Source of the DNA: Rhodospirillales bacterium
Lineage (GTDB): Bacteria; Pseudomonadota; Alphaproteobacteria; ATCC43930; CGMCC-115725
Direction: 5' to 3'
DNA: 64,000 nt
Assembly (NCBI GenBank): GCA_947473305.1
Contig: CANJCB010000009.1
Span: forward strand, 62,001 to 126,000
Shown here: in pieces, positions 8,490 through 37,777 of the stretch
Position numbering within the stretch: the first letter of the stretch is position 1
Layout of the letters: every line of letters starts with the position of its first letter
The notes under the pieces: generated by a model
Database searches by the model: none
Told to the model about the DNA's origin: nothing
What the model saw: only the letters and a program-made list of their open reading frames with translations
Made by a program: the position numbers and the translations under genes

Positions 8490-11347
8490 TTCAGGCCCCG
8501 GAATTTTACGCCGTAGCGCAGGACCGAAGGCCTCTCGGGCAAGCCGGGCGGCAGGGCGAGCATCGGCGCGCGGGGCTCGCTGACCTCGTCCTCTGCAGGC
8601 GCTTTCTCGATCCGGACGCGCAGGTCGTACCAGGCGGCCTGACCCGTCACCGGATCCGCATTGGCATAGCGATAGCCGCCGTCGCGCGCGGGCAGCAGGT
8701 CATTGATCAGATGGTTCATCAGGAAGCCGCGTTCGCTTTCCTTCGCGCCGGGAGCGAGGTTCCAGGCGCCGCGCTGCTTGCCGATCGCGTTCCAGGTCCA
8801 GACGGTGTCCCGGTTCACGCCCTCCATGAGCTTTGCCTGGACCTTGATGCGGCCGTGGTTGCTGATGACATAGATCCAGTCGTCGTCCGCAATGCCCAAT
8901 TCCTGGCCTAAGCCCCGATGAAGATGCAGCCGGTTCTCCCCATGGATCTGGCGGAGCCAGGCGTTCTGCGAGCCCCAGCTGTGGTACATGGCCATCGGCC
9001 GTTGGGTGAGCGCGCTCAAAGGAAACGCGTCGGGTCCGACATCCGTCTCCTCGAAGGGCGGATACCAGAACGGCAGGGGGTCGAAATAGCGCTCGACGCG
9101 CGCGCGATGCTCGTCGGGCGGCTGGACCTTGCCATGGCCCTGGGCCGCGAGGCGGAACCGCTGCAGGGGTTCGCTATAGACCTGGAGCGTCACCGGCTCG
9201 GCTTTGTCGAGGAACCCCATCTTCACGGCCCAGTCGAGATAGGCGCGGTTGGAATGCTTGAAGTAAAGCGCCTCCTCCGGGATATGGGCGCGCCAGAAGC
9301 ACTCGTTGTCGATATAGGCGTCGAGCTGGCCGGGATTGATCGGCCCGGTTCCGTGATCCTCGCCCTTCGCCCCGCGCCAGCCAGCCAGCAGGCCGAAGCC
9401 GGGCTTGCGCTCGTGGTTCACGATGTAATCGGGGTAGAAGCCCGGATAGCGCGGTGAGCCGTCCGGCTTCACCAGGCCCGGCAGGCCGAGCCTGGCGCCG
9501 AGATCGATCAGCACGTCCTGGAAGGGCCGCACATCCCGGTCGGGTTTCACGATCGGCTGACGGATCGCGTCGGCGGCGGCTTCCGCATTGGAAATCGGCC
9601 GGTCGAGCAGCGAGATGCAGTCGTAGCGCTCCAGATAGGTCGTGTCCGGCAGCACCAGATCCGCATAGGCCACCATCTCCGAGGCATAGGCGTCGGAATA
9701 GATGATGCGTGGGATCTTGTAGTCGCCCGTCTCTGGATCCTGGTCGACCAGCATCTGCATCACTCCCGATGTATTCATCGAGGAGTTCCAGCTCATATTG
9801 GCCATGTAGAGGAAGAGCGTGTCGATCGGATAGGGATCGCCGCTCCAGGCGTTGCGGATCACGAGATGAAGCAGCCCATGGGCCGCCAGCGGCGCTTCCC
9901 AGGAAAAGGCCTTGTCGATCCGTCGCGGCGTGCCATCCGCTTCGACGAGCAGGTCCTCGGGGCCGGTCGGGAAACCCAGGGGAGGACCGGCGAGCGGCTT
10001 GCCGGCCTGGATCTGATGGGCATGGCCGGCGGGCTTGATGGCCGGCGGGATCGGGCGTGGGAAGGGCGGCTCGTAACGGAAGCCGCCGGGCGTATCGATG
10101 GATCCCAGCAGCGTCTGCAGGAGATGGATCGCCCGGCAGGTGTGGAAGCCGTTGGAATGGGCCGAGATGCCGCGCATGGCGTGCATGCTTACCGGCCGCC
10201 CCACCATGCGGTCGTGCCGCCGACCCGCCCAGTCGGTCCAAGGTTGCTCGATGATGACGGGGGCGTCGAAGGCGGCCTGCGCAAGCTCCGCCGCGATGCG
10301 CCGGATGGTTTCGGCCGGAATGCCGGTTTCGGTGGCAGCGCGATCCGGCGAATAGCGCGGATCGAGATAACGCGCGGCCAGGAGCGTAAAGGACGGCACG
10401 CCGCTGCGACCGTCCGGCAGAAGCGCCTCGCCGGAAAGCCTCGGCGCGACGGTCGGCGTGAAGGCTGTGACCTCGCCTGTTTCCAGATCGCGAACGAGAG
10501 GCTCGCCCTTGTCGTTCCGCGCAAAAAGCCCATGGTCCGCCGCACCCGGATCGTCGATCACGAGCCAGCCGGCGTTGGTATAGCGCGCCAGATAGTCGGC
10601 ATCGACGCGTTCGGCCCGCAGAAGCTCGTGGATCAGCGCCATGACGAAAAGCCCGTCCGTGCCGGGCTTGATGCCGATCCATTCGTCCGCGATGGCCGAA
10701 TAGCCGGTGCGGATCGGGTTCACCGAGACGAATTTGGCGCCGCGTCCCTTGAGCTTGCCCAGGCCCTTCTTGATCGGGTTCGAATCATGGTCCTCGGCGA
10801 CGCCGAACATCAGGAAATAGCGGGTGAGGTCCCAGTCCGTCTCACCGAATTCCCAGAAGGAACCCCCGATCGTATAGAGCCCCGCGGCTGCCATATTGAC
10901 CGAGCAGAACCCTCCGTGGGCGGCGTAATTCGGAGTGCCGAACTGGCTTGCCCACCAGCCGGTCAGGGCCTGGGACTGGTCGCGTCCGGTGAAGAAGGCG
11001 AGTTTCCGGGGGTCGGTCCGGCGGATGTCGCCGAGCCATTGGGTCGCCAGCGCCAGCGCCTCGTCCCATTCGATCTCGCGGAATTCGCCGCTGCCGCGCG
11101 GACCGACCCGCAACAGGGGTTTTTGCAGGCGGGCGGGGGAATAATGCTGCATCAGCCCGGCCGAACCCTTGGCGCAGAGCACGCCCTTGTTCACCGGATG
11201 ATTGCGGTTGCCCTCGATGAAGCGGATGCCGCCGTCCTTCAGATGGACCTTGATCCCGCAGCGGCAGGCGCACATGTAGCAGGTCGTGAATTTGACCTCG
11301 TCGCCGATCGGTTGGTTGCGCGCGATCGGCGGGTCTATTTGCGTCAT
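8486..11347 (-). CDS. soeA: Molybdopterin oxidoreductase catalytic subunit, probably cytoplasmic sulfite dehydrogenase SoeA
   Basis: This is a 953-residue DMSO-reductase-family enzyme. A 4Fe-4S site (CYMCACRCGIK with a later GVLCAKG) opens the protein and bis-MGD-binding segments follow. A Cys at about residue 146 in HGGFCSVN is placed as the probable molybdenum ligand. The segment FGVAEDHDSNPIKKGLGKLK resembles what I recall of SoeA-type proteins. The start was set at the ATG at 11347 rather than further upstream, because the family begins just before the cysteine motif and the longer frame would overlap bpt. No twin-arginine signal is present, which argues against periplasmic DMSO, thiosulfate or polysulfide reductases and fits SoeABC, which oxidises cytoplasmic sulfite to sulfate. 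The substrate assignment is inference. Confidence 0.85.
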   Translation of the reverse strand: MTQIDPPIARNQPIGDEVKFTTCYMCACRCGIKVHLKDGGIRFIEGNRNHPVNKGVLCAKGSAGLMQHYSPARLQKPLLRVGPRGSGEFREIEWDEALALATQWLGDIRRTDPRKLAFFTGRDQSQALTGWWASQFGTPNYAAHGGFCSVNMAAAGLYTIGGSFWEFGETDWDLTRYFLMFGVAEDHDSNPIKKGLGKLKGRGAKFVSVNPIRTGYSAIADEWIGIKPGTDGLFVMALIHELLRAERVDADYLARYTNAGWLVIDDPGAADHGLFARNDKGEPLVRDLETGEVTAFTPTVAPRLSGEALLPDGRSGVPSFTLLAARYLDPRYSPDRAATETGIPAETIRRIAAELAQAAFDAPVIIEQPWTDWAGRRHDRMVGRPVSMHAMRGISAHSNGFHTCRAIHLLQTLLGSIDTPGGFRYEPPFPRPIPPAIKPAGHAHQIQAGKPLAGPPLGFPTGPEDLLVEADGTPRRIDKAFSWEAPLAAHGLLHLVIRNAWSGDPYPIDTLFLYMANMSWNSSMNTSGVMQMLVDQDPETGDYKIPRIIYSDAYASEMVAYADLVLPDTTYLERYDCISLLDRPISNAEAAADAIRQPIVKPDRDVRPFQDVLIDLGARLGLPGLVKPDGSPRYPGFYPDYIVNHERKPGFGLLAGWRGAKGEDHGTGPINPGQLDAYIDNECFWRAHIPEEALYFKHSNRAYLDWAVKMGFLDKAEPVTLQVYSEPLQRFRLAAQGHGKVQPPDEHRARVERYFDPLPFWYPPFEETDVGPDAFPLSALTQRPMAMYHSWGSQNAWLRQIHGENRLHLHRGLGQELGIADDDWIYVISNHGRIKVQAKLMEGVNRDTVWTWNAIGKQRGAWNLAPGAKESERGFLMNHLINDLLPARDGGYRYANADPVTGQAAWYDLRVRIEKAPAEDEVSEPRAPMLALPPGLPERPSVLRYGVKFRGLK

Positions 11348-11354
11348 GAGAGGT

Positions 11355-12137
11355 CTAGTCCGCGATCGGACGCCAGCCGCTCTGCTCCAGGAACTCGAGC
11401 GGCCGGAAGCGCAGCTTGTAGGACATCTTGGGACTGTTGGCGACCCAATAGCCAAGGTACACGTAAGGCAGGCCGCGTCGGCGCGCCTCGTCGATGAGTG
11501 TCAGCACCAGATAGGTTCCCAGGCTGCGGCGGGCGTCCCCCGTCTCGAAGAAGCTGTAGACCGCCGAAATCCCGTCATCCAGCAGATCCACCAGGCAGGC
11601 CGCCTTCAATTCGCCCTCGCGGTCGCGAAGCTCGATCACCCGGGTCAGGACGGGGGTGTCCTCGATCATCGAGCGATAGTCGCCGAAGGTCATGGAAGCC
11701 ATGTCGCTTTCGGTATGGCGCGAGCGCTGATAGCGGTGGAAAAGCCGATATTGCTCTGCCGTGGCGACCGGCTGGGCCGCGGTGAAGATCAGCCCTTCGT
11801 TGGCTGTCCGCACGCGGCGCATGGAACGACCTTCGACGAACTCCCCGACGACGACCCGCACGGGAACGCAAGCCTGGCAGCCCGGGCAGGCGGGGCGATA
11901 GGCCAGATGATGGCTGCGGCGGAAGCCCGCGCGGGAGAGCGTGCCGTAGATCGCATTGGCGTCGCGGCCCGACAGGTCGGTGACGATCTTCCGTTCCGTC
12001 CGGCCGGGTATATAGGGGCAGGCTGAAGAGGAGGTGCGGTAGAAATGGCGGACCGGAGGGGCGAGCGGCAATGGGGGCTCATCCCTTGCGGGCGATACCC
12101 TCGTCATCGTGATCGGCCTGTTGTTTCCCTCGGGCAT
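11355..12137 (-). CDS. bpt: Aspartate/glutamate leucyltransferase (Bpt, ATE family)
   Basis: This 260-residue enzyme adds an amino acid, leucine in bacterial Bpt proteins, to N-terminal Asp or Glu, marking proteins for ClpS/ClpAP degradation. The ATE N-terminal domain shows the expected cysteine pairs: CPYIPGRTERK and CPGCQACVPVRV. The C-terminal GNAT-like domain contains YSFFETGDARRSLGTY and YVYLGYWVANSPKMSYK. An alternative start lies at 12107, but neither candidate has a strong ribosome binding site. The soeA-like gene begins 7 bases after its stop, so the two may be cotranscribed although they are functionally unrelated. Confidence 0.93.
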   Translation of the reverse strand: MPEGNNRPITMTRVSPARDEPPLPLAPPVRHFYRTSSSACPYIPGRTERKIVTDLSGRDANAIYGTLSRAGFRRSHHLAYRPACPGCQACVPVRVVVGEFVEGRSMRRVRTANEGLIFTAAQPVATAEQYRLFHRYQRSRHTESDMASMTFGDYRSMIEDTPVLTRVIELRDREGELKAACLVDLLDDGISAVYSFFETGDARRSLGTYLVLTLIDEARRRGLPYVYLGYWVANSPKMSYKLRFRPLEFLEQSGWRPIAD

Positions 12138-27015: not shown

Positions 27016-28596
27016 ATGGAAGGCAGTTGGTTTTCGCGTGACCCTTTGCCGCTGTTGCGGCTAAATCGGCCCATGGTCGAAGGGACGATGCAAAAAGGCG
27101 GTTTGAGAAGCGGCGCAGTCGACTTCGCGACGCTGCGCGGTGTTTTCTTCGCCGCGATCGCTCTTGCCCTCGCGATTGCGGCTTTTATCCACCTGGTCTT
27201 TCCGATTCTCACGATCGGCAATCTCGCCGAGCGGAATTTCAACGAGGGTTGGAACGTCTATCACGCGCTGCGCGCGGCGCAGGGCGGGGTCATGTATGAC
27301 GCCGATCCCTGGCGGGTGAACAACTATCCCTTCCTGTCCTTCTACCTGATCGCCGGGCTCGACCGGCTGGTCGGCGACCTGCTGCTGACCGGTCGTCTGG
27401 TGGCGATCCTTTCGCTCGGCGTCACCGCGATCTCCGGGGCATTGGTCGTGCGATCCCTGGGCGGGCGGGCGCTGGAGATGGCGGTTACCGCCTGCGCGAT
27501 CCCGGCCTTCTTCCATCTGACGGCGCCGGCCTGGACCGGCACCGACGATCCCCAGTCGCTGGGCCATGCCTTCATGGCGGTGGGGCTGGCGGTCTATGTG
27601 GCGGACCGCCGGAGTCTGCGGCATCTGGCCTGGACGGCCCTGTTCCTCGCGTTGGGTGGCTTCACCAAACATAATCTGGTGGCGGTCCCCGTGGCGGTCA
27701 CGGTCGATATCCTTTTCGATTCGCGGCGGCGGTTCCTGATCTGGTGCTCTTTCGGGGCGATCTCCTGCGCGGCGCTCCTCGTTGCGATTAAGCTCATCGC
27801 CGGCGGCGATTTCCTGGGTCATCTCCTGACACCCAGGGTCTATCTCTGGGATCACATCGCCTATCACGCGCGGAAGTTCCTCATCACCTTCAAGCTGCCG
27901 ATGCTGGTGGCGATCGTGCTTTTGTGCCGGAGCCTGCCGGGCGGGCAGGGCGTGCTGCTGCGGGCCTATGGCGGCGCCGCGCTTTTGAGCGCGCTCTATT
28001 TCGCGGGTGGAGACGGGACCTCTTTCAACATCTTCCTCGATTGCGCGATCTTTCTCGGGATCGCGAGCGGCCTTGCCATCGGTCAGGCCCGTCGCAGCCT
28101 CCCGGAGGGATATCTGCGCCGGTTCGCCGTCCTGGCGGTGCCGGTCCTCGCGCTCTGGCCGGCTTTCTCTCGTCTGCCGCAGCCCGTCGATCAGCTGAGA
28201 CACCTGCCCGGCGCCCTCGCGCTGGCTGCGGGGCTGGATCAGGTCTTCGGCGCGAGCCGGGACTATGTGGCGAGCCGGCCCGGGGCGGCGGTCTGCGAGA
28301 GTCTGCTGCTCTGCTGGCGGGCGGGAAAGCCCTTCACCCTCGACAACTTCAACATTCGCCAGCAGGTGCTGGCCGGGGGGCTCGATCAGGGACCGCTGCT
28401 GGCACGCATTCGTGCGAAGGAATTCGGCGTCATTCAGACAAGCGGTCTCATTGAGGGCGACCAGCCGGGCGAACTTAACCCGCGCCTCACGGAAATGAAC
28501 CGCTTCACCGACGAGTTCCTCCGCGCGGTCCAGGAAAATTACCGTCTTGCCGAAGATGCGCCGCGCGGCCTTTACGCCTTCTATATTCCTCGCTGA
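27016..28596 (+). CDS. Polytopic inner-membrane protein, possibly GT-C-type glycosyltransferase
   Basis: This protein of about 526 residues has ten or so hydrophobic segments and a C-terminal soluble region of about 110 residues. Just after the first helix the loop [21 protein letters not shown] carries acidic residues, the position where GT-C dolichol/polyprenyl-phosphate-sugar transferases keep catalytic Asp or Glu. A long periplasmic C-terminus is also usual in that class. No specific family was recognised. The start is uncertain: 27016 has GGGGAG 8 bases before it, while 27088 follows GAAGGGACG and begins nearer the first helix. It is followed 7 bases later by the valine catabolic operon but is probably unrelated to it. 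Confidence 0.75.
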
Positions 28597-28603
28597 GGAA
28601 GAG

Positions 28604-29743
28604 ATGCGGTTCACCCTGTCAGAAGACCAGGAGGCGATCCGGCGGACGGCAGGGGATTTCGCCGCGGCGGAATTCCTGCCCTATGCCGCCCAGTGGGACG
28701 AGCAGGGCATCTTTCCTGTTGATGCTCTGCGCAAGGCGGCCGACCTGGGCTTCGCCGGCATTTATGTCCGGGAAGAGCAAGGGGGGTCGGGCCTCGGCCG
28801 TCTCGATGCCGCGCTGATCTTCGAGGAACTGGCGGCGGCCTGCCCCTCGACCGCGGCCTATCTCTCGATCCAGAACATGGTTGCCTGGATGGTCGACCGT
28901 TTCGGCAACGACGAGCAGCGCGGCCGCTTCCTCAAGAGACTCACCTCGATGGAGTCTTTCGCGAGTTATTGCCTGACCGAGCCTGGCTCCGGCTCCGATG
29001 CGGCGAGCCTCAAGACGAAGGCCGTGCGGGACGGCGATCATTACGTCCTCAACGGCACCAAGGCCTTCATCTCCGGCGGTGGGGCGAGCGATCTCTATGC
29101 GGTCATGGTGCGGACGGGGGGCGAGGGACCCAAGGGAATCTCATGTGTCCTGGTCGAAAAGGGCTCGCCGGGCCTCTCCTTCGGCAAGCGGGAACGGAAA
29201 CTCGGTTGGAATTCCCAACCGACGGCCATGGTGATCTTCGAGGATTGCCGCGTTCCTGTCGCCAACCGGCTGGGCGAGGAAGGCGAGGGCTTTAAATTCG
29301 CCATGAGCGGTCTCGATGGGGGGCGGCTCAATATCGGCGCCTGTTCCCTGGGCGGGGCTCGGGCCTGCCTCGAAGCGGCGCGGAACCATCTCATGCACCG
29401 CCGTCAATTCGGCCAGGCGCTGGCCGAGTTCCAGGCCCTCCAATTCCGTTTCGCGGATATGGCGACCGAGCTGGAAGCCGCGCGGCTCATGGTCCATCGA
29501 GGTGCGGCGAGCCTCGACGCCGGGGCTGCCGAGGCCAGCATGCATTGCGCCATGGCCAAGCGTTTCGCCACGGATGCGGGCTTTCGCATCTGCAACGAGG
29601 CGCTTCAGCTCCACGGCGGCTATGGCTATCTGAAGGATTTCCCGGTCGAACGCTATCTGCGCGATTTGCGGGTCCACCAGATCCTCGAAGGCACCAACGA
29701 GATCATGCGGCTGATCATTGCTCGCCGGCTTCTCCGGCCATGA
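28604..29743 (+). CDS. Acyl-CoA dehydrogenase, probable isobutyryl-CoA dehydrogenase
   Basis: This 379-residue flavoprotein introduces a double bond into a short-chain acyl-CoA and passes electrons to ETF. The FAD-binding [18 protein letters not shown] and the catalytic Glu362 in [10 protein letters not shown] are present. The ATG at 28604 follows the site GAGGAAG, and the upstream frame belongs to the previous gene's end. Its partners, 3-hydroxyisobutyryl-CoA hydrolase and 3-hydroxyisobutyrate dehydrogenase, make isobutyryl-CoA (valine degradation) the likely substrate. That is inferred from context, since 2-methylbutyryl- and butyryl-CoA dehydrogenases look alike. Confidence 0.93.
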
Positions 29744-30762
29744 GCGAGCTGCTTGTTGAGCGCAGGGGGGCGGTCGCTCTCGTGACCTTGAACCGGCCGG
29801 AGGCGCTCAACGCGCTGACCGCCGCCATGTGCCGGGAATTCCACCACCTGCTCGACGATTGGGCGGTTGATCCAGGCATCGCCTGCGTTGTGGTGAAGGG
29901 GATGGGCGATCGCGCCTTTTGCGCCGGCGGCGATATCCGCGCGATCTACGACGGAGAACGGGGCGGGCAGGGAGAGGGGGACTTCTTCCGGGATGAATAT
30001 ACCCTCGTCCATCGTGTCCATCGCTTTCCAAAACCCTATATCGCGCTGATCGATGGGATCGTCATGGGAGGCGGGGCCGGGATCTCGATCAACGGCTCCG
30101 ATCGGATCGTCACGGAACGCAGCCTCTTCGCCATGCCCGAGACGGGGATCGGGCTGTTTCCCGATGTGGGAGCCACCCGCTTCCTGTCGCGCTGCCCGGG
30201 GCGGATCGGACTTTATCTCGGCCTCACGGGCACGCGCCTCAAGGCGGCAGATATGCTCCATGCCGGGATCGCCACCGACTATGTGCCGAGCGATCGCCTC
30301 GACGCGCTGATCGGAAACCTAGCTGCGGGCGGGGATGTCGAGACGGCAATCCGCGGGGTCGTGGCCGACGCCGGGTCTTCCTCTCTGGCCGAGCGGCAGG
30401 CCGGGATCGACAGCTGCTTTGCGGAATCGAGGGTCGAGGACATCGTCGAGAACCTGCGGCGAGAGGAAGAAGACTGGGCCCGCGACGCCCTGAAAGCGAT
30501 GGAGCGGGCTTCGCCGACAAGTCTCAAGATCAGTCTCCGGCAATTGTCGCGAGGGGCGACGGATATCGAGGAGGCCCTTGTGCTGGAATATCGGATGACC
30601 CGCCACATCCTCAAATCCTGGGATTTCTTCGAAGGCATCCGGGCGCAGGTGGTGGACAAGGATCGCGCGCCGAAATGGCGGCCGGCGGCACTTCAGGATG
30701 TCACCGACCGGATGGTCGATGCCTATTTCGAAGCGGCCGAGCGGGAACTCGGTTTCGACTGA
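29740..30762 (+). CDS. 3-hydroxyisobutyryl-CoA hydrolase
   Basis: This 340-residue crotonase-fold enzyme releases CoA from 3-hydroxyisobutyryl-CoA in valine catabolism. The hydrolase branch is shown by [20 protein letters not shown] and the paired acidic residues in [16 protein letters not shown]. It is about 80 residues longer than simple enoyl-CoA hydratases, as expected. The start overlaps the preceding stop (ATGA). The step that makes its substrate, the hydration of methacrylyl-CoA, has no dedicated gene in this operon. A separate enoyl-CoA hydratase lies far away at 60091-60879. Confidence 0.93.
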
Positions 30763-30776
30763 AACAGGAGGAAACG

Positions 30777-31664
30777 ATGGCGAAGATCGGCTTCATCGGT
30801 CTCGGGAACATGGGCGGGCCGATGGCGGCCAATCTTCTGAAGGCGGGGCACGAGGTGGCGGGCTTCGACCTTGAAGCCTCCGCGCTCCAGGCTTTCGGCG
30901 GCAGGGCGGAAAATGATGCGGGCGCCGCGGCGGCGGGAGCGGAGATCGTCATTTCCATGCTTCCGGCCGGCCCCCAGGTCCGGGATCTTTATCTCGGAGC
31001 CGGAGCCCTGCTGGATCGCGCGGCGCCGGGGGCCTTGCTGATCGATTGTTCCACCATCGACGTGGAGACCTCCCGCTCCGTCGCGGCGGCGGCGAAGGAG
31101 CGCGGCTTCGATATGCTGGACGCGCCGGTTTCAGGTGGGGTGGGCGGGGCCACCGCGGGAACCCTGACTTTCATGGTGGGCGGTTCCGAAGGGGGCTTTG
31201 CCCGGGCGCGTCCGGTCCTGGAAGCGATGGGGAAAACCATCGTCCATGCGGGAGGCTGCGGCAGCGGGCAGGCCGTGAAGATCTGCAATAACATGGTGCT
31301 CGGGATTTCGATGATCGGCCTCTGCGAGGCTTTTGCGCTCGCCGAGCGATTAGGAGTCGAGTCGCACAAGCTTTTCGAGATCAGCGCCCAATCCTCGGGC
31401 CAATGCTGGTCGCTGACGAGCTATTGCCCGGTGCCGGGTCCGGTGCCGGCTTCCCCCGCCAACCGCGACTATCAGCCGGGGTTCACGGCTGCCATGATGC
31501 TCAAGGACCTGAAGCTGGCCCAACAGGCCGCCCAGGCTGTCGGAGCCAGCACTCCGCTTGGCGCGGAGGCTGCGGCGCTCTATCAGCTCCTGACCAATTC
31601 TGGACTGGGCGGTAAGGATTTTTCGGTTATGTATCGCTATCTGAGACCCCCCTCCGAACTCTGA
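30777..31664 (+). CDS. mmsB: 3-hydroxyisobutyrate dehydrogenase
   Basis: This 295-residue NAD+-dependent enzyme oxidises 3-hydroxyisobutyrate to methylmalonate semialdehyde. The nucleotide-binding GFIGLGNMGGPMAANL opens the protein, the substrate-binding DAPVSGGVGGATAGTL is complete, and the catalytic Lys168 is in GQAVKICNN. The C-terminal GKDFSVMYRYL is typical of MmsB rather than tartronate semialdehyde reductase. A strong AGGAGG lies 5 bases before the ATG at 30777. It ends the valine module; no methylmalonate-semialdehyde dehydrogenase gene is adjacent. Confidence 0.95.
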   Translation: MAKIGFIGLGNMGGPMAANLLKAGHEVAGFDLEASALQAFGGRAENDAGAAAAGAEIVISMLPAGPQVRDLYLGAGALLDRAAPGALLIDCSTIDVETSRSVAAAAKERGFDMLDAPVSGGVGGATAGTLTFMVGGSEGGFARARPVLEAMGKTIVHAGGCGSGQAVKICNNMVLGISMIGLCEAFALAERLGVESHKLFEISAQSSGQCWSLTSYCPVPGPVPASPANRDYQPGFTAAMMLKDLKLAQQAAQAVGASTPLGAEAAALYQLLTNSGLGGKDFSVMYRYLRPPSEL

Positions 31665-31719
31665 TCCAAAGGACAATCCCTTGGCGGAAATGTTAGAAAA
31701 GCCTTTCAATTTAATAAAT

Positions 31720-31734
31720 GGAACTTTAACTTCC
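31720..31734. promoter_or_regulatory. Imperfect palindrome upstream of the MarR/LdtR gene
   Basis: The 15-base sequence GGAACTTTAACTTCC is symmetric except at positions 5 and 11 and the centre. It lies 45 bases before the regulator's ATG in an AT-rich spacer. MarR proteins commonly bind such palindromes near their own promoter. An operator role is only a suggestion. Confidence 0.3.
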
Positions 31735-31779
31735 TGATTGTTACCCTTCCTGCGGTCCGCTGCGACAGCCGAGGCTCGA

Positions 31780-32259
31780 ATGGACGCTGCTTATCTGGAC
31801 ATTATCGTGCTGGTGGAACGTCTCCGTCGCCTGTTTCTTGAGGTAGTCAAGGTCGAACTGGACAGCCAGGGCGTGCACGACATCAACAACGTCCAAGCTG
31901 TGATTCTCTTCAATATCGGTGATGTCGAGATGACGGTTGGCGAGCTGACGCTGCGCGGCTGCTATCTCGGCTCGAATGTCTCCTACAACGTGAAGAAGAT
32001 GGTCGAAGCCGGCTATCTGGTGCAGGAGCGGTCGCCCCATGACCGGCGCTCGGTGCGTGTGCGCCTCTCCGACAAGGGGCGGGTGCTGCGCGACAAGATC
32101 TCGGCCATGCATGACCGCCATGTCCAGGCGCTGACCCAGGGCGTCGTCCCGCATGAGGACTTAGTCAACGCGCAGACGACGCTTCGTCGGCTCGAGCGCT
32201 TCTGGATCCAGGCTGTCGAGCTTGGCGCCCGCACCACGCAATTCAATCCCGCCGCCTAA
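31780..32259 (+). CDS. ldtR: MarR-family winged-helix regulator, LdtR-like
   Basis: This 159-residue DNA-binding protein has the MarR fold. The N-terminal dimerisation helix is DAAYLDIIVLVERLRRLFLE, the recognition helix region is LGSNVSYNVKKMVEAGYL, and the wing is PHDRRSVRVRLSDKG. The sequence NNVQAVILFNIGD and the overall layout match LdtR, a MarR protein of alphaproteobacteria that controls an L,D-transpeptidase and tolerance to stress. The ATG at 31780 is preferred over the TTG at 31738 because it begins directly at the conserved helix. It follows mmsB by 115 bases and could control that operon, but LdtR function elsewhere suggests a cell-envelope role. A terminator follows. Confidence 0.9.
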   Translation: MDAAYLDIIVLVERLRRLFLEVVKVELDSQGVHDINNVQAVILFNIGDVEMTVGELTLRGCYLGSNVSYNVKKMVEAGYLVQERSPHDRRSVRVRLSDKGRVLRDKISAMHDRHVQALTQGVVPHEDLVNAQTTLRRLERFWIQAVELGARTTQFNPAA

Positions 32260-32281
32260 TCACCGGGGTCTGGCCTTTTGA

Positions 32282-32313
32282 AAAGCCCGGCGCTCTATCG
32301 GCGCCGGGCTTTC
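32282..32313 (+). terminator. Intrinsic terminator after the LdtR-like gene
   Basis: A perfect 12-base-pair stem (AAAGCCCGGCGC with GCGCCGGGCTTT) has a 7-base loop. The run of T after the stem is short, so termination toward the plus strand is likely but perhaps incomplete. Confidence 0.75.
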
Positions 32314-32406
32314 CATATCTGGGGACCTATTTCCGGGGGTTGATGTTATCGTTCCGCCTTGCCCGGACGATCGTGTCGGCGCGGCGGGGAATCGAAGGGC
32401 GCAGGG

Positions 32407-33693
32407 ATGGCTGAAACCGAAGCGCAAGCCGCCAAGGAAGAGAAGCCGAAGCTTATCCAGGTGCTCGGGCCGGGCCTGATCACGGGCGCCTCCGACGACG
32501 ATCCGAGCGGCATCGCGACCTACGCGCAGATCGGCGCCCAGGTCGGCTATGGCATGACCTGGGTCATGCTTTTCAGCATCCCCTTGATGACCGGGATCCA
32601 GGAAATCAGCGCCCGCATCGGGCGGGTTACGGGGCGGGGGATCGCCGGCAATATCCGGCGGCACTATCCGCCCTGGCTGCTCTATGCGATCGTCGGGACA
32701 TTGGCGGTCGCCAATACGATCAACCTGGGCGCGGATCTCGGCGCCATGGGCGAGGCGCTCCAGCTCCTCATCGGCGGTCCGCGCTTGGTTTATGTGATCC
32801 TGTTCGGCGCGCTCTGCGTCGGGCTCGAGATTTTCATGCAGTATCGGAACTACGTGGGCGTCCTCAAATGGACGACGCTCTCGCTTTTCGCCTATGTGGC
32901 GACGGCCTTGGTGGTCGATATTCCCTGGGCGCATGTCGGCTACGAGACCCTGGTGCCCTCCCTCCAGTTCACCAACCAATATGTGGTGGGCATCGTCGCG
33001 GTGCTGGGGACGACGATCAGCCCCTATCTCTTCTTCTGGCAAGCCTCTCAGGAGGCCGAGGACGAGCACGAGACGCCCGGCGCGAAACCCCTGAATCTTG
33101 CTCCGCTCCAGGCGCCCAAGGAGATGCGCCGCATCCGCATCGATACCATCGTCGGCATGGTCTTCTCCAACCTCGTCGCCTTTTTCATCATGGTGACCAC
33201 CGCGGCCACCCTCAACGCCAATGGCATCACCGATATCGCCACCTCCGCCCAGGCGGCCGAGGCCTTGAAGCCCCTGGCGGGTCCCTTCGCTTACGCGCTT
33301 TTCGCGCTGGGGATCATCGGGACCGGCATGCTGGCGGTGCCTGTCCTGGCAGGTTCGACGGCCTATGCGGTCGGAGAGGTGTTCCAATGGCCGACCGGCC
33401 TGGCGCGCCTTCCGAAGGACGCGAAGGCCTTCTACCTCACCATCGCCATCGCAACGCTGATCGGCATGGGGCTGAACTTCACGCCGATCGATCCGATCAA
33501 GGCGCTGTTTTGGAGTGCCGTTCTCAACGGCATCGCCGCGGTGCCGATCATGGTGCTGACCATGACGATGGCGCAGCAGCCCCGGGTCATGGGCCGTTTC
33601 ACCCTCCCGCCCACGCTCCGGTTTCTGGGTTGGCTCGCAACCCTGGTCATGGGGGTCGTGGTGGTCGCGATGATCTGGATTCAACTGGTCTGA
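32407..33693 (+). CDS. NRAMP-family divalent metal transporter with atypical metal-binding motifs
   Basis: This 428-residue membrane protein has about eleven hydrophobic segments. It keeps the NRAMP fold signature at helix 1, but the canonical DPGN reads DPSG (Asp32-Gly35). At helix 6 the canonical MPH reads SPY (Ser205-Tyr207 in GTTISPYLFFWQ), so the methionine that selects transition metals is absent. Such variants occur in NRAMP-related proteins that accept other ions such as Mg2+ or Al3+. The ion here is therefore open, and MntH would be an unsafe name. The ATG at 32407 follows GCAGGG. The small gene 33698-33886 follows after 4 bases. Confidence 0.9.
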   Translation: MAETEAQAAKEEKPKLIQVLGPGLITGASDDDPSGIATYAQIGAQVGYGMTWVMLFSIPLMTGIQEISARIGRVTGRGIAGNIRRHYPPWLLYAIVGTLAVANTINLGADLGAMGEALQLLIGGPRLVYVILFGALCVGLEIFMQYRNYVGVLKWTTLSLFAYVATALVVDIPWAHVGYETLVPSLQFTNQYVVGIVAVLGTTISPYLFFWQASQEAEDEHETPGAKPLNLAPLQAPKEMRRIRIDTIVGMVFSNLVAFFIMVTTAATLNANGITDIATSAQAAEALKPLAGPFAYALFALGIIGTGMLAVPVLAGSTAYAVGEVFQWPTGLARLPKDAKAFYLTIAIATLIGMGLNFTPIDPIKALFWSAVLNGIAAVPIMVLTMTMAQQPRVMGRFTLPPTLRFLGWLATLVMGVVVVAMIWIQLV

Positions 33694-33697
33694 CCCC

Positions 33698-33886
33698 ATG
33701 GCGGAGCGGGAGATCCTTTTCGAAATCCAGCCGGTCGGGGCGGTTTTGCGGGTGGTCGCCGTGGATGCGACGACAGGGGTGGAAGTGACGATCCTGGGCG
33801 ATCCGCGCATGAACACGCGCGATCTGCAGCACATGGCCCGCCGAAAGCTCGAATACGTGCTGGCGAAACAGGCTAAGGGAAGCTAG
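33698..33886 (+). CDS. Small conserved protein of 62 residues (DUF6898-like)
   Basis: The protein reads as a beta strand-rich N-terminus (ILFEIQPVGAVLRVVAVDA, TGVEVTILGDP) followed by one amphipathic helix (DLQHMARRKLEYVLAKQ). No signal peptide or membrane segment is present. It resembles a family of about 60 residues seen in Rhodospirillales annotation as DUF6898; this is from memory. It is placed 4 bases after the NRAMP-like gene and is probably cotranscribed. The function is unknown. Confidence 0.75.
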   Translation: MAEREILFEIQPVGAVLRVVAVDATTGVEVTILGDPRMNTRDLQHMARRKLEYVLAKQAKGS

Positions 33887-33976: not shown

Positions 33977-34890
33977 ATGGCGTATTTCCTTCAGCAGCTG
34001 ATCAACGGCCTGACGCTCGGGGCCATCTACGGCCTGATCGCGATCGGCTATACGATGGTCTATGGCATCATCGGGATGATCAATTTCGCCCATGGCGAAA
34101 TCTATATGATCGGGGCCTTCATCTCGGTGATTTCCTTCCTGGCCCTGAGCGCCGCCGGGGTGACCTATGTGCCGCTGGCGCTCCTGGTCGTGCTGATTGT
34201 TACCATGACCTTCACCGCGGCCTATGGATGGACGATCGAGCGGATCGCCTATCGCCCGCTGCGGCATTCCTTCCGGCTCGCGCCGCTGATCTCCGCCATC
34301 GGCATGTCGATCTTCCTGCAGAACCTCGTGCAGCTGCTGCAGGGCGCGCGGGTGAAACCGCTCCAACCGATCGTGAGCGGCGGCTTCGTGCTCCTCGACA
34401 GCGGCGATTTCGAGGTGCAGATCAGCTATCTACAGATCTTCATCATCCTGCTGACCGTGGCGCTCATGGCCGGCTTCACCACCATGATCAACCGCACGTC
34501 CCTGGGCCGCGCGCAACGCGCCTGCGAGCAGGACGGCACCATGGCGGCGCTGCTGGGCGTCAATGTCGACCGGACGATCTCGCTGACTTTCGTCATGGGC
34601 GCGGCGCTGGCGGCCGTCGCGGGCATGATGGTCACGCTCTATTACGGCGTGATCGATTTCTATATCGGCTTCCTCGCCGGCGTTAAGGCCTTCACGGCCG
34701 CGGTCCTGGGAGGCATCGGCTCGCTTCCCGGCGCCATGCTCGGGGGCATCCTCATCGGCCTCATTGAGGCCTTCTGGTCCGGTTATTTCTCGGTGGAATA
34801 CAAGGATGTGTCCGTTTTCGGCATCCTGGTGCTGGTGCTGATCTTCCGGCCGACCGGACTCCTCGGCCGGCCGGAGGTCGAGAAGGTCTG

Positions 34891-34891
<1 letters not shown>
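33977..34891 (+). CDS. livH: Branched-chain amino acid ABC transporter permease LivH
   Basis: This 304-residue inner-membrane permease has about eight helices. LivH signatures are LINGLTLGAIYGLIAIGYTM near the start and the cytoplasmic coupling loop GRAQRACEQDGTMAALLGV, which docks on the ATPases. GVKAFTAAVLGGIGSLPGAM is also typical. It is the first gene of livHMGF. The start of livM overlaps its last base (TGATG). Confidence 0.97.
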
Positions 34892-36203
<1,312 letters not shown>

Positions 36204-36207
<4 letters not shown>

Positions 36208-37064
36208 CTGGGGCCGATCCCGCGGCTCTGCTCGATGTCGAGCATCTCACGATGCGGTTCGGCGGTCTCGTGGCCGTGGACGATCTGTCCTTCACGGCAC
36301 GCAAGCAGGAGATCACCGCGATCATCGGCCCCAACGGGGCGGGGAAGACGACCGTCTTCAACTGCCTGACCGGCTTTTACAAGCCGAGCACCGGCCGCCT
36401 CACGCTTCAAGGAGCGAAGGGCGCCCATCTTCTCGAACGGATGATGGGGTTTCGGATCGCGCGGGATGCGGGCGTCGCGCGAACCTTCCAGAACATCCGG
36501 CTTTTTTCGGGCATGACGGTGCTGGAAAACCTGATCGTGGCCCAGCATCGCAAGCTCATGGCCGCGAGCCTCTTTTCGGTTGCGGGTCTGCTCGGGCTGC
36601 CGCGCTACCGCAATGCCGAAGCGGAAGCGGTCGAACGAGCCAAGCACTGGCTCGACCGGATCGGGCTTTTGGCGCGCGCCGACGAGAACGCCGGCAATCT
36701 TCCCTATGGCGCCCAACGCCGGCTGGAGATCGCCCGGGCGCTTTGCACAGAGCCGGTGCTGCTTTGCCTCGACGAGCCGGCAGCCGGTCTCAACCCCAGG
36801 GAATCCGCCGAACTCAACGAATTGCTCCTCTCGATCCGGGACGAGAGCCGCATCGGCATCCTGCTGATCGAACACGACATGAGCGTGGTCATGGGGATTT
36901 CCGACCATATCGTCGTGCTCGACTACGGCCGCAAGATCGCGGATGGGACACCCGCCGAAATCCGCAGCGATCCCAAGGTCATCAAAGCCTATCTCGGCGA
37001 GGACGAAGAGGACGACCTGCCGCCGGTGGTGGCGCGGGACCTGGGCCTTGGAGCCGGGGCATGA
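36204..37064 (+). CDS. livG: Branched-chain amino acid ABC transporter ATP-binding protein LivG
   Basis: This 286-residue ATPase has Walker A GPNGAGKTT, Q-loop ARTFQNIRLF, signature NLPYGAQRRLEIARAL (the non-canonical LivG form instead of LSGGQ), Walker B LLCLDEPAAGLNP and switch His in LIEHDMSVVMG. The C-terminal tail of about 20 acidic and hydrophobic residues after AYLGEDEED is longer than usual. The GTG start at 36204 overlaps the livM stop. ATP hydrolysis by the LivG-LivF pair drives import. Confidence 0.96.
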
Positions 37065-37777
37065 CCATGCTCTCGATCGAAGGCGTCCATACGTTCTATG
37101 GGAATATCGAAGCCCTGAAAGGTGTCGATGTGTCGGTGGAGACCGGCGAGATCGTGACCCTCATCGGGGCGAATGGGGCGGGGAAATCCACGCTTCTCAT
37201 GACGATCTGCGGTCGGCCGCGTGCGTCCAAGGGACGGATCGTCTTCGAAGGCCGGGATATCACGGGCACCGAAACCTTCGAGATCGTGCGGCTCGGCATT
37301 TCCCAATCGCCGGAGGGACGGCGGATCTTTCCCCGCATGACCGTTCTGGACAACCTCCAGATGGGGGCCATCTCCACCGACCCTTCCTACTTTACCGAAG
37401 ACCTGAAGCGCGTCTTCACCCTCTTCCCGATCCTGGAGAGGCGGCAGGAGCAGCGGGGTGGCACGCTCTCCGGCGGCGAGCAGCAGATGCTGGCGATCGG
37501 CCGGGCGCTGATGAGCCGACCGCGTCTTCTCCTGCTCGACGAGCCGTCGCTGGGGCTCGCCCCGCTTGTCGTGAAGCAGATCTTCGAGGTGATCCGCGAG
37601 ATCAACGAGCAGCAGAAGGTCACGGTCTTCCTAGTCGAGCAGAACGCCTATCACGCCTTGAAGCTCGCCCATCGCGGCTATGTCATGCAGACGGGGCAGA
37701 TCGCGCTCCAGGGGACGGGGCGGGAGCTGCTCGGCAATCGCGAGGTCCGCGCCGCCTATCTGGAGGGAGGTCACTGA
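37061..37777 (+). CDS. livF: Branched-chain amino acid ABC transporter ATP-binding protein LivF
   Basis: This 238-residue ATPase is the second of the pair. It has Walker A GANGAGKST, signature LSGGEQQMLAIGRALM, Walker B LLLLDEPSLGLAP and switch region FLVEQNAYHALKLAHRGYV. The family marker SPEGRRIFPRMTV is present. The start overlaps the livG stop (ATGA) and the next small gene begins on its final base, so the whole cluster is one translationally linked operon. Confidence 0.97.
   Translation: MTMLSIEGVHTFYGNIEALKGVDVSVETGEIVTLIGANGAGKSTLLMTICGRPRASKGRIVFEGRDITGTETFEIVRLGISQSPEGRRIFPRMTVLDNLQMGAISTDPSYFTEDLKRVFTLFPILERRQEQRGGTLSGGEQQMLAIGRALMSRPRLLLLDEPSLGLAPLVVKQIFEVIREINEQQKVTVFLVEQNAYHALKLAHRGYVMQTGQIALQGTGRELLGNREVRAAYLEGGH

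Follow-up and report, generated by a model that had tools for sequence, protein, structure and literature searches.

Nramp proteins have served as a model for how transporters select metals and gate access to them. In DraNramp, the inner gate is reported to be held in the outward-open state by E176 of transmembrane helix 5 (TM5) and R244 of TM6b, residues conserved in 100% and 85% of Nramps, respectively (PMC10185341). Beyond the canonical family lie paraphyletic Nramp-related proteins in which diverse residues replace the DPGN and MPH motifs (Ray, Berry and Gaudet 2026; PMC12873925), part of which Cellier treats as an orphan outgroup (PMC10606218; "outgroup" in PMC9606685). A few of these have been assigned substrates: EleNRMT from Eggerthella lenta is an Nramp-related Mg2+ transporter (Mg2+/Mn2+) (PMC8806188), YcsG/MntG from B. 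subtilis is a reported Mn2+ importer (PMC10448178), and Acp2977 from A. capsulatum fully rescued a Mn2+ defect but needed low millimolar Mg2+ to rescue a Mg2+ defect (PMC4072509). Groups other than the NRMT-like and "G-motif 3" (MntG) proteins are called entirely uncharacterized in the available text of PMC12873925.

The existence of Nramp-related proteins without DPGN and MPH is thus already known. The clade that we describe here consists of PF01566-type proteins that lack both motifs, like the groups of Cellier and of PMC12873925 in the text available, and judged by description it probably lies among those already reported as uncharacterized. The literature searched yielded nothing specific on the motif or on a metal phenotype of clade members, and no assay of any of them. 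A widespread natural branch that has dispensed with the Met, the Asn and the TM10 Gln, and whose gate charges are inverted, offers a natural test of which elements the published Nramp mechanism cannot do without. Additionally, a substrate for one member would help to label genes called "divalent metal cation transporter" and the like in soil and plant-associated bacteria.

The protein and its clade

The window (the whole 64,000-nucleotide stretch of Rhodospirillales DNA that was analyzed) encodes a 428-residue protein in a frame without internal stops (table 1), which matches the Pfam Nramp profile PF01566 with an E value of 2.1e-87 and 293.9 bits (cut-off 29.8). The AlphaFold2 model, built with 22 relatives, has a mean pLDDT of 86.8 and predicts helix breaks at residues 30–32 of TM1 and 204–205 of TM6, the substrate-site breaks of an Nramp-type LeuT fold. 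A preliminary description had read DPSG in helix 1 and SPY in helix 6 and had remarked on the loss of DPGN and MPH; indeed, the breaks read DDDPSG and TTISPY, and the protein contains no DPGN or MPH at any position. That the true helix 6 lies elsewhere and retains MPH is ruled out by this whole-protein check and by the predicted TM6 break, which falls where it had first been placed.

Table 1. Features of the Nramp-related gene and its surroundings, in window positions
Feature	Position	Strand	Basis and remarks
MarR-family regulator	31738..32259	+	name read from sequence; follows acyl-CoA dehydrogenase, enoyl-CoA hydratase and 3-hydroxyisobutyrate dehydrogenase-type genes
Inverted repeat, 15-nt arms, 93% complementary, just 3' of the MarR-type gene	32279..32315	+	
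Nramp-related transporter gene, 428 aa plus stop	32407..33693	+	ORF translation, Pfam, AlphaFold2, fold and sequence matches
TM1 break, D30-D31-D32-P33-S34-G35	32494..32511	+	alignment, AlphaFold2; D30, D31, D32, P33 and G35 invariant in 23 sequences
TM3 acid D110 (DraNramp E134, EleNRMT E133)	32734..32736	+	alignment
TM5 K154, proposed base of the inverted inner-gate pair	32866..32868	+	alignment; K/R in 110/111 clade members
TM6 break, T202-T203-I204-S205-P206-Y207 (DraNramp A-T-V-M-P-H)	33010..33027	+	alignment, AlphaFold2
TM6b acids E216, E218 and D219, proposed acidic partners in the inverted pair	33052..33063	+	alignment
TM10 A371, replacing the conserved Gln (DraNramp Q378, EleNRMT Q379)	33517..33519	+	alignment
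62-aa DUF6898 protein, adjoining the Nramp gene	33698..33886	+	Pfam; often before LivHMGF
LivH-LivM-LivG-LivF-type ABC transporter genes	33977..37777	+	names read from sequence; frequent DUF6898 neighbors

VIA comparison of the model with known folds places outward-open DraNramp first (6d91; Z 49.8, rmsd 2.2, 394 residues aligned) and also retrieves EleNRMT (7qji; Z 43.0, rmsd 3.0, 392 aligned), an order that says little about kinship because the entries differ in conformation. Nramp entries score between Z 31.6 and 49.8, whereas the APC proteins that come next in the list (AdiC 3l1l, Z 29.7; ApcT 3gia, Z 28.3) reach at most 29.7. MntG/YcsG is Nramp-related and was compared by fold only (9a52_A, Z 38.2). 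By sequence, EleNRMT is the best match among solved structures: it scores 138.6 versus 65.4 bits in one comparison with solved relatives, and 234.8 bits versus at most 104.6 for any canonical entry in a match to solved structures.

Relative to four relatives, the window gene has an NG86 dN/dS of 0.23–0.35 at dS of 0.77–0.99 and looks to be under purifying selection. Together with the open frame and the near-invariance of the site residues in 111 clade members, this makes it scarcely credible that the gene is a decaying or nonfunctional paralog, a reading that can appeal to another SPY-type copy, broken into two overlapping pieces in different frames in Paraburkholderia xenovorans.

The DPSG/SPY change is not peculiar to a single gene, as the motif marks a large clade. 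When the whole protein was searched against 61 genomes, 60 of them picked by kinship to that of the window, members turned up in 29, the window's own counted, with 47–71% identity in the others. When the window protein is aligned with 22 relatives from that search, which did not use the motif, D30, D31, D32, P33, G35, D110, T202, I204, P206, Y207, E216 and A371 are invariant in the 23 sequences, and S34, S205 and K154 are each conserved in at least 90%. A scan of species genomes with DNA patterns that contain the TM1 or TM6 motif yielded at least 578 relatives and 80 loci; among the matches listed, most belong to Alpha-, Beta- and Gammaproteobacteria, with others in Acidobacteria, Cyanobacteria and one Phycisphaerales bacterium. 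Members reside on plasmids or megaplasmids in Rhizobium, Sinorhizobium, Paraburkholderia, Caballeronia, Mesorhizobium and Methylobacterium, where they are annotated as "divalent metal cation transporter," "Nramp family divalent metal transporter" or "iron transporter" (379 records, canonical proteins included).

The set compared comprises EleNRMT, DraNramp, BfraNramp and 196 sequences taken from loci, 199 in all, of which 111 represent the clade: 79 came from the motif-containing DNA scan and 32 from other searches, all were then chosen by motif, and one that is missing the TM1 stretch (L021) was placed among them by hand. Conservation of the motif in the 111 rows is therefore partly by construction; K154, E216, D110 and A371 are absent from every scan pattern, and less biased support comes from the 23-row whole-protein set, the 32 rows from outside the motif scan, and trees built from alignments stripped of the TM1 and TM6 motif columns.

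In the careful tree (56 rows chosen from the 199), canonical Nramps fall on one side of a branch with 100/100 support and the clade lies outside it; the clade itself is supported at 98/94. Its sister is a group with DPSA in TM1, found in genomes of the order that contains Acidipila (99/96), and the next branch comprises three rows from the same order that have SPY in TM6 (100/99). The AU test rejects a grouping of the clade with canonical Nramp (p = 0.0013). In the best tree the lineage falls with EleNRMT and its relatives, weakly (76/49; 86 SH-aLRT in a quick tree). Hence the phylogeny sets the protein outside canonical Nramp and leaves the union with EleNRMT weak: it is not a canonical Nramp and not demonstrably an NRMT.

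Several observations on individual sequences accompany this sampling. One suspected broken copy (L020) was rejected as such, the single TGA being its own stop codon at the last residue of the match. Pseudanabaena biceps (G063) carries three equal-scoring PF01566 copies (C3:10688-11788, C3:155728-156828 and C4:150685-151785), one of them the clade member L049, on a contig titled plasmid, and the gene may have been duplicated on plasmids. The split SPY-type match of P. xenovorans LB400 (G066, C1:603495-604588) is probably a broken extra copy, and this strain has intact clade copies on another contig. L235, L236 and L237, a sister branch that splits off more deeply, read DPA(G/A) in TM1 and RxSPY in TM6; they keep the TM10 Gln, but the gate pair is absent in its usual form and in its inverted form alike. 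A further Nramp-related group (L032, L167, L168, L171, L176, L179, L182, L185, L186, L188 and L227) shows D-x-G-S in TM1 (one with Glu), the TM6 Met in 9 of 11 and Trp at the His position, and is possibly the MntG-type group.

Ion site, proton pathway and inner gate

With canonical proteins such as DraNramp, BfraNramp and the window genome's own MntH, the window protein shares the fold, the helix breaks and the TM1 Asp; it departs from them in its want of DPGN, MPH and the TM10 Gln, in the replacement of most proton-pathway residues, and in the tree, which rejects the grouping. Position by position, D32 aligns with DraNramp D56 and EleNRMT D55, G35 with N59 and G58, T202 with A227 and T224, S205 with M230 and A227, and Y207 with H232 and W229. 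The NRMT signature D55, G58 and T224 is thus present as D32, G35 and T202, and the protein resembles EleNRMT (PDB 7qia, 7qji) in its Nramp fold, its TM1 Asp and Gly, its TM6 Thr and the lack of an acid at the positions of DraNramp E124 and D131. In contrast to EleNRMT, the clade has Ser for Ala227, Ala for Gln379, Asp for Glu133 and Tyr for Trp229, inverted TM5/TM6b charges, and two further Asp residues directly ahead of the TM1 Asp (D30 and D31, aligned with EleNRMT Gly53 and Asn54 and with DraNramp Y54 and M55). Position 205 is Ser in 103 and Thr in 8 of the 111 members; the canonical-Met position is itself split between Ala (5) and Thr (5) in the 10 NRMT-core rows, so Ala there is a weak NRMT feature. 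Position 110 is Asp in all 111 clade members and Glu in 36/36 canonical sequences, and position 371 is Ala in 111/111 versus Gln in 10/10 NRMT-core rows. The DPSA sister group (e.g., L224, L226, L238, L248, L249), for which we found no function, shares DDD in TM1, Ser 205, Tyr 207, the TM5 base and the TM6b acid, and differs in having Ala for Gly35, Glu for Asn106 and Gly for Ala371.

Published mutants bear on these substitutions. In EleNRMT, T224A is reported to abolish detectable Mg2+ transport, and Q379A to compromise transport strongly, about as damagingly as D55A; in EcoDMT, M235A opened the way to Ca2+, not Mg2+, and a triple change to NRMT residues gave no interaction with Mg2+ while Mn2+ was still moved (PMC8806188). 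The preliminary description had argued that the missing Met favors another ion such as Mg2+, or else a different kind of substrate. Part of this stands, in that the Met and Asn ligands are gone, the protein lies outside canonical Nramp, and its nearest solved relative transports Mg2+ and Mn2+; the EcoDMT mutants indicate, however, that loss of the Met is no argument when taken alone, and the clade is also without the TM10 Gln, whose mutation to Ala severely impairs EleNRMT (PMC8806188).

This bears equally on the reading of the window protein as an ordinary NRMT-type Mg2+ transporter, that is, an H+-uncoupled Mg2+/Mn2+ uniporter whose differences from EleNRMT are cosmetic. The Asp/Gly and Thr signature is common to both, EleNRMT is the best solved relative, and the best tree joins the two lineages (76/49); yet the clade combines this Thr with Ala at the Gln position in 111/111 members, where Q379A strongly compromises EleNRMT (PMC8806188), so a plain NRMT reading is insufficient. 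The gate charges are inverted, MgtE_N, present at the NRMT-core locus L246, is not a recurring neighbor, and the genome already has CorA. We regard this reading as rather unlikely.

The proton pathway of DraNramp has been largely dismantled: E124, D131, R352, R353 and H232 correspond to A100, L107, L335, P336 and Y207, and no clade member (0 of 111) has an acid at 100 or 107. Position 336 is Pro in 76/111 members. Position 335, Leu in the window protein, is Lys or Arg in 67/111 and speaks less clearly on the pathway because it is often still basic. Clade B canonical Nramps are also reported to be without most proton-pathway charges (PMC12873925).

The inner gate departs further from the described arrangement. 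EleNRMT K241 and DraNramp R244 align with position 219 of the window protein. With the clade, nine DPSA rows and three next-branch rows counted apart, 73 of the 76 remaining sequences keep the usual polarity of Glu in TM5 and Lys or Arg in TM6b; Asp/Glu at 150 with Lys/Arg at 219 occurs in 34/36 canonical and 39/40 other Nramp-related proteins (EleNRMT included). Within the clade, position 150 is Val or Ala in 107/111 members, and Lys or Arg at 154 occurs together with E216 in 110/111, 106 of which also have an acid at 219. Among the 32 rows from outside the motif scan, the inverted pair is present in 31 and A371 with D110 in all 32. The DPSA sequences have a base at 154 and an acid at 219 in 9/9 and an acid also at 216 in 7/9; the three next-branch rows have neither arrangement. 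K/R154 lies four residues beyond 150 in TM5, on the same face by gapless alignment to EleNRMT, and E216 lies three residues closer to the membrane center than 219 in TM6b. In our reading, the gate ion pair appears to have disappeared and then arisen anew with its charges swapped, possibly deeper by one helical turn; judged from the alignment, K154 would contact E216. Because the tree shows the inversion as a single event, the rows do not count as independent evidence for it. One targeted search returned no description of an altered or inverted inner gate in the text available from its sources.

Candidate substrates and mechanism

We hypothesize that the window protein, as a member of the Nramp-related DPSG/SPY clade, imports divalent cations without proton coupling, a reading to which we give roughly an even chance and within which Mg2+ is a plausible substrate. 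Uncoupled divalent-cation import is favored by the superfamily, the predicted fold, the conserved site and the loss of E124, D131 and the His; a divalent cation is favored because the Nramp-related proteins that have been tested are reported to move Mn2+ and/or Mg2+ (PMC8806188, PMC4072509, PMC10448178). The missing TM10 Gln argues against a plain NRMT. In the mechanism that we envisage, a partly hydrated divalent ion (Mg2+ and/or Mn2+) would enter between TM6a and TM10 and would be bound by D32, T202, S205 and carbonyl groups of the backbone close to D110. Closure of the outer gate would do without the usual TM10 glutamine. The inner gate would be shut by K154 of TM5 with E216/D219 of TM6b in place of Glu(TM5)-Arg/Lys(TM6b), and on its opening the ion would be released past D30/D31. 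Several findings count against this explanation: the TM10 Gln is replaced by Ala in all 111 members, searches for metal-linked regulation or a metal-linked partner came up empty, support for the grouping with EleNRMT is weak (76/49), and 67/111 members still have Lys or Arg at the R352 position. By fold alone, the model is also closer to DraNramp than to EleNRMT, in entries whose conformations differ.

A Mn2+-preferring importer of transition metals that uses hard ligands only, like MntG/YcsG or Acp2977, would be in keeping with the assignment of these two non-EleNRMT relatives to Mn2+ (PMC4072509, PMC10448178) and with the Mn2+ transport reported for EcoDMT bearing NRMT residues (PMC8806188). 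The other metal transporters of the carrier genomes speak against it. The one other PF01566 protein of the window genome is a canonical MntH (L001) with DPGN and MPH, which scores 425.8 bits against DraNramp, and a canonical Nramp is present in 8 of the 12 other clade carriers (none was found in the remaining 4; several of the genomes are drafts). With no soft ligand at the Met position and no Mn2+ regulatory link found, we consider Mn2+ preference unlikely. The window genome also encodes CorA, and a search of it gave no match to MgtE; because canonical MntH and CorA are both encoded, the clade protein is probably not the cell's only route for Mn2+ or Mg2+.

We also entertain a more radical possibility, namely that the DPSG/SPY clade and its DPSA sister constitute a mechanistically distinct Nramp-type carrier, with an inner gate of opposite polarity, an outer gate without the TM10 glutamine and three consecutive Asp residues in TM1. 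Such a carrier would occlude its substrate by a different mechanism, would probably transport something other than bare Mn2+/Fe2+ or the hydrated Mg2+ of NRMTs, and might use the TM5 lysine as a new coupling element. We put this forward tentatively, as a possible if doubtful interpretation.

Gene neighborhood and regulation

In the window, the Nramp gene stands between a MarR-type regulator and a DUF6898 gene that is followed by LivHMGF. The preliminary description had paired the transporter with the 62-residue DUF6898 protein, for which a literature search gave no paper. This pairing comes down to adjacency: across the neighbor regions of the 61 genomes DUF6898 is no conserved partner, and the two genes are direct neighbors in the window genome (G000) only. 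DUF6898 occurs in 14/61 genomes, 6 of which also have a clade member (G000, G006, G007, G013, G016, G044). In G016 the Nramp gene again lies inside the MarR-DUF6898 interval, with an opposite-strand acyl-CoA dehydrogenase gene between it and DUF6898; in related genomes MarR homologs are found near DUF6898 without an Nramp gene. Of the 13 other regions, 6 have LivH after DUF6898 (L127, L129, L130, L133, L136, L137), and 5 of these show no Nramp match within the stretch. DUF6898 is without LivH in L132, the regions of L135 and L138 end soon after DUF6898, and in L131, L134, L139 and L140 the 62-residue query fell below the blast threshold although the HMM had matched. Because DUF6898 and LivH mostly occur together without it, the Nramp gene looks like an insertion into the MarR-DUF6898 interval, in G016 as well.

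The catabolic-type genes with MarR at 28547-32259, DUF6898 and LivHMGF at 33977-37777 form a neighborhood that is found again in part in related genomes, which points to a possible unit for branched-chain amino acid uptake and breakdown.

The setting between amino-acid-catabolism-type and Liv genes is one of the points in favor of a nonmetal cationic substrate (e.g., an amine) and an APC-type function. ApcT has a coupling lysine, a part that K154 in TM5 would play here; the three TM1 Asp residues and D110 accompany one conserved base inside TM5, and APC proteins such as AdiC and ApcT are next in the fold list. Nramp entries nevertheless outscore APC entries in that list, the metal-binding Asp is kept, and the Liv neighborhood does not recur in the other loci examined, G016 excepted. 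Aligning profiles with amino-acid permeases gave nothing significant (probabilities of 0.1 and 2 percent), with several of the permease frames probably wrong. We judge a nonmetal substrate to be quite improbable and retain divalent-cation import as the preferred reading.

Genes around the wider set of loci were called by a simple codon-position score rather than a trained gene finder, and the tally of neighbors had no distant-gene control. No Nramp gene was called at four of the 80 loci (L045, L088, L105, L106). At the other 76, a same-strand neighbor lies within 100 bp downstream in 18 and upstream in 28 (three loci have a single neighbor, counted on both sides). A conserved operon partner is ruled out, since no family accounts for more than 6 of the 145 immediate neighbors tallied (4 of the 149 called, one each at L065, L078, L109 and L111, were left out). 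MgtE_N, Fur and MntR are not recurring families among the 145, and MgtE_N occurs at most once. An MgtE_N-type neighbor is reported for A. capsulatum (PMC4072509), and as a control of context the NRMT-core locus L246 carries an MgtE_N-CBS-PRC gene nearby; the frame tried at a second, L245, had no Pfam match.

Neither the window nor any of 23 other clade loci yielded a riboswitch at Rfam thresholds, M-box included. A consensus scan found no sigma-70-type promoter-like site and one weak terminator-like match, fewer than the shuffle mean. The 15-nt inverted repeat 3' of the MarR-type gene, which has a short T run and is absent from the scan's list, is possibly the terminator of that gene; because it follows the stop codon, the MarR-type gene may be transcribed separately. 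At L107 in Rhizobium rhizogenes, Rfam matches to group II intron RNA (9617-9765 and 11676-11752) lie just downstream of the clade member.
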